DNA of 64,000 bases, taken from positions 62,001 through 126,000 of the forward strand of contig CACAWY010000003.1 in the NCBI GenBank assembly GCA_902536385.1, given 5' to 3'. Below the pieces are notes generated by a model, which ran no database searches, was not told where the DNA came from, and worked only from the letters and a program-made list of their open reading frames with translations. This document shows positions 58,842 through 62,577 of the stretch, piece by piece. The translations under genes were made by a program, and so were the position numbers. This DNA is from an uncultured Pelagibacteraceae bacterium (lineage in GTDB: Bacteria > Pseudomonadota > Alphaproteobacteria > Pelagibacterales > Pelagibacteraceae). Each line of letters starts with the position of its first letter. The first letter of the stretch is position 1.

Positions 58842-59794
58842 AGTTTTACAATCATAGACTTATCTAATTTGTTTTCAAAAAAATTAATAATATTTTTTGT
58901 AGTTTCAATAGACATTCTAGACTTACATTCATTTGTGAAAGTAGCTGAATGCGGACTCAGCAAAACTTTTTTATTTTTTTTTAATGGATTATTTTCATCT
59001 ATAGGCTCTCTTTCAAATACGTCTAAGCCTGCACCAAAAATAATATTTTCATTCAATGCTTTATTTAAATCAGTTTCATTAATTATACCTCCTCTTGAAG
59101 TATTTATTAAAACAGCATTTTTTTTCATTGTTTTAAGCTTTGAATAATCTATCATATTTCTTGTTTTATCATTTAGAGGTGTGTGTAACGATAAATAATC
59201 ACAGCTGTGAATTCCCTTATCAAAATTTTCAATCTTATTTCCTCCAAAGCTTTTAATTACTTCGGTTGAAACATAAGGATCAAAAATGTTTACCTTCATT
59301 TCAAAGCCTAAACACCTCTTAATTAAATTTTTTCCTATTCGTCCGAAACCCACAATCAATATTTCTTTATTGTATAATTCTAAAGTTTCAATATTAGATG
59401 CATTTTGTTTAAAATTCCCAGATCTAACTTCATAATCATACGAACTTAAGCCTTTAGATAAAGCAAGCATCATGCAGATTACATGCTCAGCAACAGCTAC
59501 TGCATTGGCGGTAGCTGTAATTAAAAGCGAGATATTTTTTTTTTTAATATAGGCTAAATCTATATTATCATAACCTACTCCATGTCTTGAAATAACTTTT
59601 AATTTAGAACAGTGTTTAAGAATATTTTCACCGAGCTTTGAAACTCTTAATGTGCAGGCATCGAACTCTGGTAGTTTTTTTATTAAATTTTCCTCTGATA
59701 CATCTGTAATTAATTCATACTTAAAATCTTTATTTGTATTTAATAAATCCAAACCATCTTTATGAATATTTTCAATAACAGCAATTTTTTTCAT
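58838..59794 (-). CDS. D-isomer-specific 2-hydroxyacid dehydrogenase (phosphoglycerate dehydrogenase-like)
   Basis: This 318-aa NAD-dependent dehydrogenase has the split substrate domain and Rossmann core of the family: 'SRHGVGYDNIDLAYIKKKNI', 'VAEHVICMMLALSKGL' (VAE), 'EILIVGFGRIGKNLIKRC' (GxGxxG), 'LHTPLNDKTRNMID', 'NTSRGGIINETDLNKAL' and 'HSATFTNECKSRMSIET' with the catalytic His. It lacks the C-terminal ACT domain of long SerA. Substrate could be 3-phosphoglycerate, glyoxylate/hydroxypyruvate or another 2-hydroxyacid. It is coupled to the unknown membrane protein. A link to the inositol genes is not evident. Confidence 0.88.
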   Translation of the reverse strand: MKKIAVIENIHKDGLDLLNTNKDFKYELITDVSEENLIKKLPEFDACTLRVSKLGENILKHCSKLKVISRHGVGYDNIDLAYIKKKNISLLITATANAVAVAEHVICMMLALSKGLSSYDYEVRSGNFKQNASNIETLELYNKEILIVGFGRIGKNLIKRCLGFEMKVNIFDPYVSTEVIKSFGGNKIENFDKGIHSCDYLSLHTPLNDKTRNMIDYSKLKTMKKNAVLINTSRGGIINETDLNKALNENIIFGAGLDVFEREPIDENNPLKKNKKVLLSPHSATFTNECKSRMSIETTKNIINFFENKLDKSMIVKL

Positions 59795-59801
59795 AAATTT
59801 T

Positions 59802-59876
59802 TGGCGGTCCCAAGGGGAATCGAACCCCTCTTTGTTGGATGAAAACCAACTGTCCTAACCGATAGACGATGGGACC
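59802..59876 (-). tRNA. tRNA-Glu (UUC), overlapping the 3' end of recJ
   Basis: On the minus strand the 75-base tRNA begins GGTCCCATCGTCTA. Acceptor GGTCCCA/TGGGACC, anticodon stem GTTGG/CCAAC with loop TTTTCAT (anticodon TTC), T-arm GGGGTTCGATTCCCC and encoded CCA. Its first 22 bases are also the last codons of recJ, including the TAG stop in the D-loop. Confidence 0.97.
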
Positions 59877-61639
59877 ACATTTTTGAGTGTCTTATTAACA
59901 GAAATATCATCGATAATAAACTCTACATTTGATTGCCCCTTCCACTCATTTAGGGATAATTTTCCTGCAATATTAAATAGTTTTTTATCTTCCTTAAGTA
60001 AATATGCCCCAATATCATTTTCAACTGAATTAAATGCTATTGCTTTTATTACTGAACCCTCTTGTCCAACTAGAACAGATTTAATATGTTTTTCTTTTAA
60101 TATTTTATTATTTACTGATTTAACATTTTCAATCACAAATTTTGGCTCAGGGTTACCAGAACCAAAAGGAGCTAAAGAATTAATCTTATTATAAAAATCA
60201 ATATTAAGTGCAGTTGGAGCAATTATGCTATCTAAATATAAAGATTTTTGTTTGGATAAATTTTTATCAATTTTTTTAAATTTGGTAAAAATAAAATCTT
60301 TGAATTTTTCAATATTCTCAACTTTTATTGAAAAACCACCAGCCATTTTATGACCTCCTCCTTTAATTAAAATTTTTTTTTGAGTAGCAGCAATAATCGC
60401 CGAGCCAATATCAAAACCAATAATTGATCTTGCTGACGCCTTACCAATATCGTTTTCAATTGAAATGACAATTACAGGTTTATTAAATTTATCTTTTATT
60501 CTTGCTGCAGCTATTCCTATTACACCTTCATGTAAGCCTTTATCTGAAATAATTAACACTGGATCTGAAAGAGTGTTTTCAGCAACCTTTAATATTTTGT
60601 ATAAAACTTCTTTTTCGAGAAGTTGCCTCTCTTTATTAAACTCATTTAATTCAGTTGCAATTTTGAATGCGTCTTTAGGATTTGTATTAAGTAATAAGTT
60701 AGCACCATGAGAAGATTTACCTACTCTACCCCCAGCATTTATTCTCGGCCCTAATAAATATCCAATATCGCTGACATTTGGATGATTTTCCACGTTACAT
60801 ATATCTAATAAAGTCTTTATACCTAAATTTTTTTTTGATCCTAAAACTTTTAAACCTTGTTTTACTATAGCCCTGTTAAGACCTATCAAAGGGACAACAT
60901 CACAAATTGTTCCTAACGTGACGAGATCTAAATAATTTATTAGGTTTGGTTCCAGAATTTTATTTTTATTAAACCAATCGGTTGATCGTAATTCTTTATT
61001 TATAGAAACTAAAAACATAAATGTTACACCTGCGGCACATAAATAATTAAGTTCAGATTTATCATCCATTCTATTTGGATTAATTACAGAATGAGCTTTT
61101 GGCAAAGATATTTGTGATTGATGGTGGTCTAACACAATTACATCTATATTATTTTTATTTGCATACTCTATAGCCTTAAAAGATAATGTTCCGCAATCAA
61201 CAGTAAAAATTAAAGTAACTCCTTTATTAATAAGTTTTTTAAATGCATTCTCTGAAGGACCGTAGCCTTCACTTTTTCTATCAGGTATATAAATTTCATA
61301 CGGTTGATTAATTGCTGAAAAAAAATTTCCTAAAAGAGCTGTTGCTGACGCTCCATCAACATCATAATCTCCAAAAATTCCAATTTTTTCAACAGTATTA
61401 ATTGCTTTTATAGTTCTTAAGGTGGATTTCTTCATATCACTCAAAACTTCTGGGTTTGGTAAAAAATTTTTTATTGATGGTTTGAGAAAATTACTTATTT
61501 CATTTTTTTTAATTTTTCTTATTGATAAAAGTTTTGAAGTAATTTCATCTAAAAAAAAATTTTCTTTGAAAAAATCTATATCTTCTTGATTAAAATTTTT
61601 AAAAATCCAACTTTTCCTACTAATTGAAAGTGAATTCAT
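59855..61639 (-). CDS. recJ: Single-stranded-DNA-specific exonuclease RecJ
   Basis: RecJ degrades single-stranded DNA 5'-3' in recombination and mismatch repair. The 594-aa DHH-family nuclease shows 'IFGDYDVDGASATALL' (motif I), 'TVDCGTLSF', 'VIVLDHHQSQISLPKAHSVINPNR' (DHH, motif III), 'CAAGVTFMFL', 'LGPRINAGGRVGKSSHG', and the DHHA1 C-terminal 'GHKMAGGFSI'. Length is normal (~570-590). The last six codons and stop lie within tRNA-Glu. The ATG overlaps the glpX stop by 4 bases, giving the order hom-glpX-recJ common in alphaproteobacteria. Confidence 0.96.
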   Translation of the reverse strand: MNSLSISRKSWIFKNFNQEDIDFFKENFFLDEITSKLLSIRKIKKNEISNFLKPSIKNFLPNPEVLSDMKKSTLRTIKAINTVEKIGIFGDYDVDGASATALLGNFFSAINQPYEIYIPDRKSEGYGPSENAFKKLINKGVTLIFTVDCGTLSFKAIEYANKNNIDVIVLDHHQSQISLPKAHSVINPNRMDDKSELNYLCAAGVTFMFLVSINKELRSTDWFNKNKILEPNLINYLDLVTLGTICDVVPLIGLNRAIVKQGLKVLGSKKNLGIKTLLDICNVENHPNVSDIGYLLGPRINAGGRVGKSSHGANLLLNTNPKDAFKIATELNEFNKERQLLEKEVLYKILKVAENTLSDPVLIISDKGLHEGVIGIAAARIKDKFNKPVIVISIENDIGKASARSIIGFDIGSAIIAATQKKILIKGGGHKMAGGFSIKVENIEKFKDFIFTKFKKIDKNLSKQKSLYLDSIIAPTALNIDFYNKINSLAPFGSGNPEPKFVIENVKSVNNKILKEKHIKSVLVGQEGSVIKAIAFNSVENDIGAYLLKEDKKLFNIAGKLSLNEWKGQSNVEFIIDDISVNKTLKNVVPSSIG

Positions 61640-62577
61640 TTATTGTAAATGTTTTTTATTTTTTTATTTATCTTTTTACTTTTATGTAAAGCAAAAGTAT
61701 TTACCTCGTATTCGTTACCCAGATCTCTAACCCCATTTGCCAAATCTCCATCTGTTACTCCAGTAGCACAAAAAATCACATCACCTTTGACCATATCTTC
61801 TATATTATACTTTTTATTAAAATCTTTTATACCTAATTTCTTAGCTCTTATTTTTTCTTCCTCATTTAAAACTAGACGTCCCTGAATTTGTCCACCATAA
61901 CATGATAATGCAGCCGCAGCTAAAACTCCTTCAGGCCCACCTCCGGTTCCATAATAAATATCATTTTTTGGATTTTCACCAATAACACTTAATGCACCAG
62001 TGATATCACCATCGGTAATATAGTTAATAACAACTCCCATTTTTTCAAGCAAACTTACTATTTTGTCATGTCGGGGTCTTTTCATAATACAAGCGCTCAT
62101 GTCCGAAATTTTTTTCTTTTTTGCTTTAGCTAATAGTTCTATATTTTTTTCTACTCCATTATCTATATCTAAAAGATTTTTTGGAAGATTTGCTCCAATA
62201 ACAATTTTTTCCATATAAGTGTCAGGGGCTGATAATAAATCACCTCTTTTAGCAACTGCTAAAACCGAAAAAGCATTTGGTTCATTATTAGCCGTAAATT
62301 TAGTACCTTCCAATGGATCAACTGCAATATCAAATTTAGGTCCTTTTAGTGTTCCTAATCTTTCACCAATATAAAGCATGGGTGCTTCGTCCATTTCTCC
62401 TTCACCTATAACTATAGTTCCCTCCATATTTATTTTGTTAAGTTCTCTTCTCATTGGATCTACAGCACCTTTATCAGCAGCAATTTTATTTTTTTTTCCA
62501 ATAAATTTTGATGCTCCTATTGCCGCTTTTTCTGTTGCTTTTATAAATAAATTTAAGAACTTAGAGTCAATAGACAT
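61636..62577 (-). CDS. glpX: Fructose-1,6-bisphosphatase, class II
   Basis: GlpX hydrolyses fructose-1,6-bisphosphate in gluconeogenesis, and in some lineages also sedoheptulose-1,7-bisphosphate. The 313-aa protein has 'AAIGASKFIGKKNKIAADKGAVDPMRRELN', 'IGEGEMDEAPMLYIGERLG' with the metal-binding Glu cluster, 'AVDPLEGTKFTANNEPNAFSVLA' (DPLEGT) and 'YYGTGGGPEGVLAAAAL'. The motifs are the class II signatures and do not occur in class I (Fbp). It is coupled to hom (1-base overlap) and recJ (4-base overlap). Confidence 0.95.
   Translation of the reverse strand: MSIDSKFLNLFIKATEKAAIGASKFIGKKNKIAADKGAVDPMRRELNKINMEGTIVIGEGEMDEAPMLYIGERLGTLKGPKFDIAVDPLEGTKFTANNEPNAFSVLAVAKRGDLLSAPDTYMEKIVIGANLPKNLLDIDNGVEKNIELLAKAKKKKISDMSACIMKRPRHDKIVSLLEKMGVVINYITDGDITGALSVIGENPKNDIYYGTGGGPEGVLAAAALSCYGGQIQGRLVLNEEEKIRAKKLGIKDFNKKYNIEDMVKGDVIFCATGVTDGDLANGVRDLGNEYEVNTFALHKSKKINKKIKNIYNK

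Follow-up and report, generated by a model that had tools for sequence, protein, structure and literature searches.

The recJ reading frame of SAR11 bacteria ends inside tRNA-Glu and contains a candidate tRNA promoter

The recJ gene studied here lacks its own stop codon; the TAG that it borrows lies in the D-loop of a tRNA-Glu gene on the same strand. Comparison with relatives indicates that the overlap is more than chance, being real and conserved, and it looks like an ancient, conserved and space-saving arrangement. Moreover, sequence comparison reveals a strongly constrained DNA element in the last codons of recJ, which is a new result of this analysis and was absent from the first-pass annotation of the region. 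The reading that we prefer, at a probability of roughly 0.72, is that of an inherited packing overlap in which the tRNA is probably made from its own promoter inside recJ and the side effect is tolerated, with no regulatory device at work. What is most interesting is that the end of a coding sequence probably serves at the same time as promoter for an essential tRNA.

SAR11 are the most abundant heterotrophic marine bacteria. Among them, a comparison of some 90 species-level genomes documents the conserved overlap of a housekeeping protein gene with what is apparently the sole tRNA-Glu gene, suggesting that genome streamlining can strip a gene of its own stop codon and of an intergenic promoter. 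Literature searches on recJ with tRNA-Glu in SAR11 returned no relevant match and, as far as we searched, the overlap is previously undescribed.

The overlap and its gene neighbourhood

The window, by which we mean the whole stretch of 64,000 nucleotides that was analysed, carries on its minus strand, in this order, glpX, recJ, tRNA-Glu(TTC) and a D-2-hydroxyacid dehydrogenase gene, with glpX overlapping the start of recJ by 4 nt (ATGA). The features are listed in the direction of reading, with negative positions counted from the tRNA 5′ end.

61636..62577, minus strand: upstream gene glpX, fructose-1,6-bisphosphatase class II (Pfam FBPase_glpX)
59855..61639, minus strand: recJ, single-strand-DNA exonuclease, 594 aa (Pfam DHH/DHHA1/RecJ_OB)
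59915..59923, minus strand: upstream invariant block GAGTTTATT, -47 to -39 from the tRNA, recJ codons 573-575, invariant in 92/92 genomes
59915-59920, minus strand: candidate -35 region TTTATT inside GAGTTTATT, putative promoter role
59892..59902, minus strand: downstream invariant block TCTGTTAATAA, -26 to -16, recJ codons 580-583, TCTGTTAWTAA in 92/92 genomes
59892..59902, minus strand: candidate (extended) -10 region TG-T-TAATAA within TCTGTTAATAA, putative promoter role
59884, minus strand: possible transcription start of pre-tRNA-Glu, an A at -8 that is 98% conserved, suggested by its spacing to the candidate -10
59802..59876, minus strand: tRNA-Glu, anticodon TTC (UUC), CCA encoded (ARAGORN, Rfam and a DNA search of its own genome)
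59855..59876, minus strand: recJ/tRNA-Glu overlap of 22 nt, coding for the tail (V)PSSIG and the stop
59855..59857, minus strand: recJ stop TAG, tRNA bases 20-22, in the D-loop
59795..59801, minus strand: gap AAAATTT, 7 nt, from the tRNA CCA end to the next start codon
58838..59794, minus strand: downstream gene, D-2-hydroxyacid dehydrogenase family, 318 aa (Pfam 2-Hacid_dh_C)

The recJ frame closes with ...AAT GTG GTC CCA TCG TCT ATC GGT TAG, and the tRNA opens with GGTCCCATCGTCTATCGGTTAGGAC. The tRNA takes the last G of GTG as its base 1; six whole codons and the TAG then follow within it, making 22 nt in total. The first-pass annotation had described a recJ frame ending inside a same-strand tRNA-Glu, with its TAG in the D-loop, at 59855-59876; this is borne out by the ORF and by ARAGORN, and the positions are exact. 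RecJ_OB, the last domain of RecJ recognised by Pfam, ends at residue 578, and therefore the tail encoded by the tRNA lies outside any domain. The tRNA itself has the cloverleaf, the UUC anticodon and the CCA, and scores 59 bits in Rfam. Three frames are able to enter it, of which just one meets an internal stop, the other two being open through the whole tRNA.

This is the sole full-length tRNA-Glu found among the 28 tRNA genes of a genome that is ~82% complete, and relatives likewise have one full-length copy. Since it is the only one found, the cell is unlikely to obtain the amounts that it needs from a low-level DNA-repair mRNA. The overlap is also singular among these 28 tRNA loci: no other is entered by a long upstream ORF, and the nearest other upstream stop falls 9 nt before tRNA-Trp. 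Annotation pipelines often forbid overlaps between coding sequences and tRNAs, and those that do will mis-call the ends of recJ.

On the other side of the tRNA, the dehydrogenase start codon follows the CCA by 7 nt, a gap that the first-pass annotation had not noted, and a gene start is similarly close in many relatives. If co-transcribed with the tRNA, the dehydrogenase mRNA would be nearly leaderless after tRNA 3′ processing (window 59794-59801).

Conservation among SAR11 relatives

The search for recJ covered 247 genomes from the family and 147 from the order, and the 3′ ends were read with ARAGORN. Across two families, tRNA-Glu lies 3′ of recJ on the same strand in nearly every genome whose recJ end could be read. 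The genus of the window (g1) and its sister genus (g2) contribute 66 and 26 genomes respectively, 92 in all and ~90 at species level. The first-pass annotation had proposed comparing the recJ C-terminus across SAR11, and the comparison finds the overlap conserved: in 79 of these 92 genomes (61/66 in g1, 18/26 in g2) recJ terminates at one and the same base of the tRNA.

The remaining 13 depart from this state in four ways. Eight genomes, representing 3 events, have a TAG split by the tRNA boundary (TA/G), such that G1 of the tRNA is the third base of the recJ stop. Three more, from 2 events, have a full TAA directly before G1. One has its stop in a different frame, at tRNA bases 13-15, and one (G052) carries an insertion. 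In a RecJ tree built without the tail columns, g1 and g2 group together with strong support and the overlap prevails in this clade, with ~7 independent exits from it (3 TA/G, 2 TAA, 1 frame change and 1 insertion). Older lineages (g4, g5, g9, g12 and the sister family f2) keep the tRNA apart from the recJ stop by a spacer of ~38-81 nt.

A single genome of a third, deeper-branching genus, g8 (L224, G008), shows the same 22-nt overlap with partly different synonymous codons. The overlap there may be either ancestral or a second origin.

A constrained element in the last recJ codons

An alignment anchored on the tRNA 5′ end shows hardly any nucleotide change in the final recJ codons. The element GAGTTTATT-N12-TCTGTTAWTAA, 16-47 nt 5′ of the tRNA and inside recJ codons, is found in 92/92 genomes of g1 and g2. 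Synonymous differences are confined to its 12-nt middle, and the flanking blocks are invariant in all 92, synonymous sites included. Codons 573-582 have a mean excess synonymous-codon identity of 0.87 (92 genomes), as compared with a median of 0.07 for 10-codon windows of recJ; no such window outside the tail exceeds 0.25. In many cases the codons that are kept are rare ones (GAG 23%, ATC 10% and AAG 14% usage).

The element is best read as TTTATT-N17-TAATAA, with the hexamers at -44 and -21 and a TG one base 5′ of the second. A strict scan for the sigma-70 -35/-10 consensus (9 of 12) gave no match on the minus strand and, the element being a poor match, a consensus sigma-70 promoter was rejected here; for this reason a promoter role is something that we infer. 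An Rfam search at the element returned no RNA family other than tRNA. The two-block constraint could also come from a conserved RNA element or from another DNA-binding site.

Relatives in which the tRNA has moved away from recJ help to assign the element. In g3 and g11 the tRNA-Glu lies about 0.7-1.7 kb or more beyond recJ, 1.6 kb in one genus, and the 14 recJ ends from these genera lack synonymous constraint of the kind seen in g1 and g2. Just 5′ of the tRNA-Glu in these genera there is a free-standing promoter-like sequence, in most cases TTGAAA-N17-TAAATA, which in g3 lies in a similar register. In the g1+g2 genome with the insertion, G052, recJ and tRNA-Glu are separated by 941 bp that include a NeuB-family ORF (L052 3255-4193, in recJ orientation). 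The G052 recJ has an ending of its own, DISVRSA and stop, and a non-coding duplicate of the recJ end adjoins the tRNA, with the 50 nt before the tRNA kept. In this single case the element within the duplicate is intact, with 32 nt identical to the intact copy, and the duplicate has decayed farther upstream through stops and indels. Given that the element is kept at the tRNA in G052 and that the constraint is gone in g3 and g11, the element most likely belongs to the tRNA rather than to RecJ.

Outgroups that bear a spacer have TTGATT-N16-18-TAWAWA, starting at -42 to -38, in 9/9 genomes checked, and the recJ element is in a similar register. The family f2 (L062-L075, L176-L195) has a strongly conserved recJ/tRNA-Glu spacer, TTGATT...TATATAAAT, which is a candidate free-standing tRNA promoter and a useful comparison.

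Fate of the recJ and tRNA-Glu transcripts

Comparison shows that the spacer was lost in the ancestor of g1 and g2, whereupon the recJ frame ran into the tRNA and captured the TAG of the D-loop. Intergenic distances in SAR11 are small, with a median of 3 nt (PMC2704228), which makes packing a natural cause of the overlap. Transcription of tRNA-Glu would most likely start from a promoter lying within the 11 recJ codons that precede the tail, where the constraint is observed and the function is proposed. This promoter would comprise the candidate -35 within GAGTTTATT and an extended -10-like TGTTAATAA situated 16-24 nt before the tRNA. A start near -8 would give a 5′ leader of ~8 nt, presumably trimmed by RNase P. 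RecJ would be translated from longer glpX-recJ transcripts that start upstream and extend 22 nt or more into the tRNA. Any recJ molecules cut by RNase P would become non-stop mRNAs, and may be cleared by tmRNA-SmpB, both components of which are encoded in the genome. An ArfB-sized RF-1 protein was not found in this genome; ArfB was rejected as an alternative means of rescue, since only two RF-1-domain proteins turned up, with frames of 344 and 360 aa, the size of release factors. mdRNA-Seq of SAR11 has been published (PMC5069720).

The first-pass annotation had offered two alternatives, a promoter of the tRNA's own inside recJ or post-transcriptional regulation of the pair. The two-block constraint, its loss in g3 and g11 and the G052 copy all argue for the former, and the latter is without support. 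Given this comparative evidence, most tRNA molecules probably do not derive from the recJ transcript, against the premise of the first-pass argument.

The element could instead act in RNA, directing where RNase E or RNase P cuts a recJ-tRNA transcript, as a leader or as a processing signal. Its position directly 5′ of the tRNA would suit such a role, and a hairpin can form in the sense RNA, followed by an acceptor stem that folds correctly. However, this hairpin is weak and mostly missing from the centroid, and was rejected as a candidate on that account. Moreover, the element looks like a promoter, with invariant blocks ~17 nt apart, a variable middle and the register of the relatives' TTGATT-N16-18-TAWAWA. 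We therefore regard an action in RNA as doubtful.

A regulatory switch has also to be considered. It is sound to reason that RNase P, in cutting a read-through transcript where the tRNA begins, would part recJ from its stop, and mutual exclusion of tRNA and RecJ is possible for transcripts from the recJ operon promoter. A recJ transcript would then yield either tRNA or full-length RecJ, keeping RecJ low or coupled to tRNA demand, and the same model has been proposed for selB/selC (PMC8124441). The cut would destroy the recJ stop in 88/92 genomes of g1 and g2 (offsets -19 and -12 and the TA/G class), and tmRNA-SmpB is present. In the 82 genomes with the standard tail length there is no in-frame stop in the four codons before the tRNA (584-587). 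However, this avoidance of stops is not robust: in simulations on the recJ tree for these codons, p was 0.013 under a uniform model and rose to 0.22 with site-specific (column-specific) composition, and it was rejected as evidence of a selected switch. The shift to 0.22 leaves no robust sign of selection for the overlap, and the repeated exits agree with this, the 22-nt overlap having been left ~7 times and twice by way of a complete TAA just before the tRNA. Further, a promoter-like element serving the tRNA alone is more constrained than the overlap, and the older lineages manage without the overlap. Neither stop avoidance nor the overlap exits thus gave any sign, within g1 and g2, of selection for a regulatory switch, which we judge to be improbable.

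A further reading, in which one and the same transcript either matures into the cell's only tRNA-Glu or serves to make full-length RecJ, as decided between RNase P and the translating ribosome, seems to us slightly more improbable still. If true, the level of the exonuclease would be tuned to tRNA processing or growth, and the overlap would be maintained by selection in the most abundant bacteria of the ocean. The genomes form a natural set (overlap, TA/G, TAA before the tRNA, displaced) that is suited to asking whether non-stop mRNAs made by RNase P matter.

Lastly, a sequencing or assembly error hiding a recJ that truly stops before the tRNA, the objection that the first-pass annotation had itself raised, has a negligible chance of being correct: some close relatives do end recJ immediately ahead of the tRNA and 13/92 genomes differ from the main state, but the same overlap recurs in 79 independently assembled single-cell and metagenome genomes and the tRNA bases are fixed by tRNA function, so that this conservation rules out a base error.

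The closest precedent is the overlap of selB with selC (tRNA-Sec), described from Alphaproteobacteria, Gammaproteobacteria and Nitrospirae (Mukai 2021, PMC8124441). There, selB frames run through or into tRNA-Sec and a non-stop-mRNA consequence of processing was proposed; in the gammaproteobacterial Dyella/Luteibacter selB terminates within the tRNA, at a base that is conserved, and in close relatives of the overlap genomes selB stops before it (PMC8124441). Similarly, recJ enters a same-strand tRNA in frame, has a conserved internal stop and has relatives that stop earlier. The selB/selC tRNA, however, is a specialised one (Sec) and is tied to SelB, which carries Sec-tRNA, whereas recJ runs into the sole housekeeping tRNA-Glu found. 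No functional tie of that kind emerged between RecJ and tRNA-Glu: the Pfam domains of RecJ are only DHH, DHHA1 and OB, and the protein is not known to be linked to, or to act with, tRNA-Glu. The recJ overlap ends in the D-loop, and comparative constraint points to a candidate embedded tRNA promoter, whereas PMC8124441 describes no same-strand embedded promoter.

Overlaps of tRNA and protein genes are also found in compact animal mitochondria, for example Armadillidium cox1/tRNA-Lys (cited in PMC8124441). The recJ case shares with these genome compaction, bases common to mRNA and tRNA, and processing that decides the fate of a transcript. Mitochondrial transcripts are polycistronic and without individual promoters, whereas the tRNA-Glu beside recJ seems to have its own. 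In dense bacterial genomes, promoters may be embedded in the 3′ coding end of the upstream gene, and here too a coding sequence doubles as a likely promoter that is visible as synonymous constraint; unlike embedded bacterial promoters generally, the recJ stop also lies inside the promoted tRNA.

Downstream of the tRNA-Glu, many g1 genomes carry 1-3 fragments of its 3′ part (bases ~40-75), each of which closes a block of 0.8-3 kb of mostly unknown small genes (L305-L314; for example L305 396-4004, L307 435-3630 and L309 333-2426). An integrase was not identified in these blocks when their ORFs were read by eye. The fragments look like att repeats of small cassettes integrated in tandem, and we take the blocks to resemble small mobile elements that target tRNAs, of a tycheposon-like kind. 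In L309, the 2-hydroxyacid dehydrogenase gene resumes directly after the tRNA fragment.
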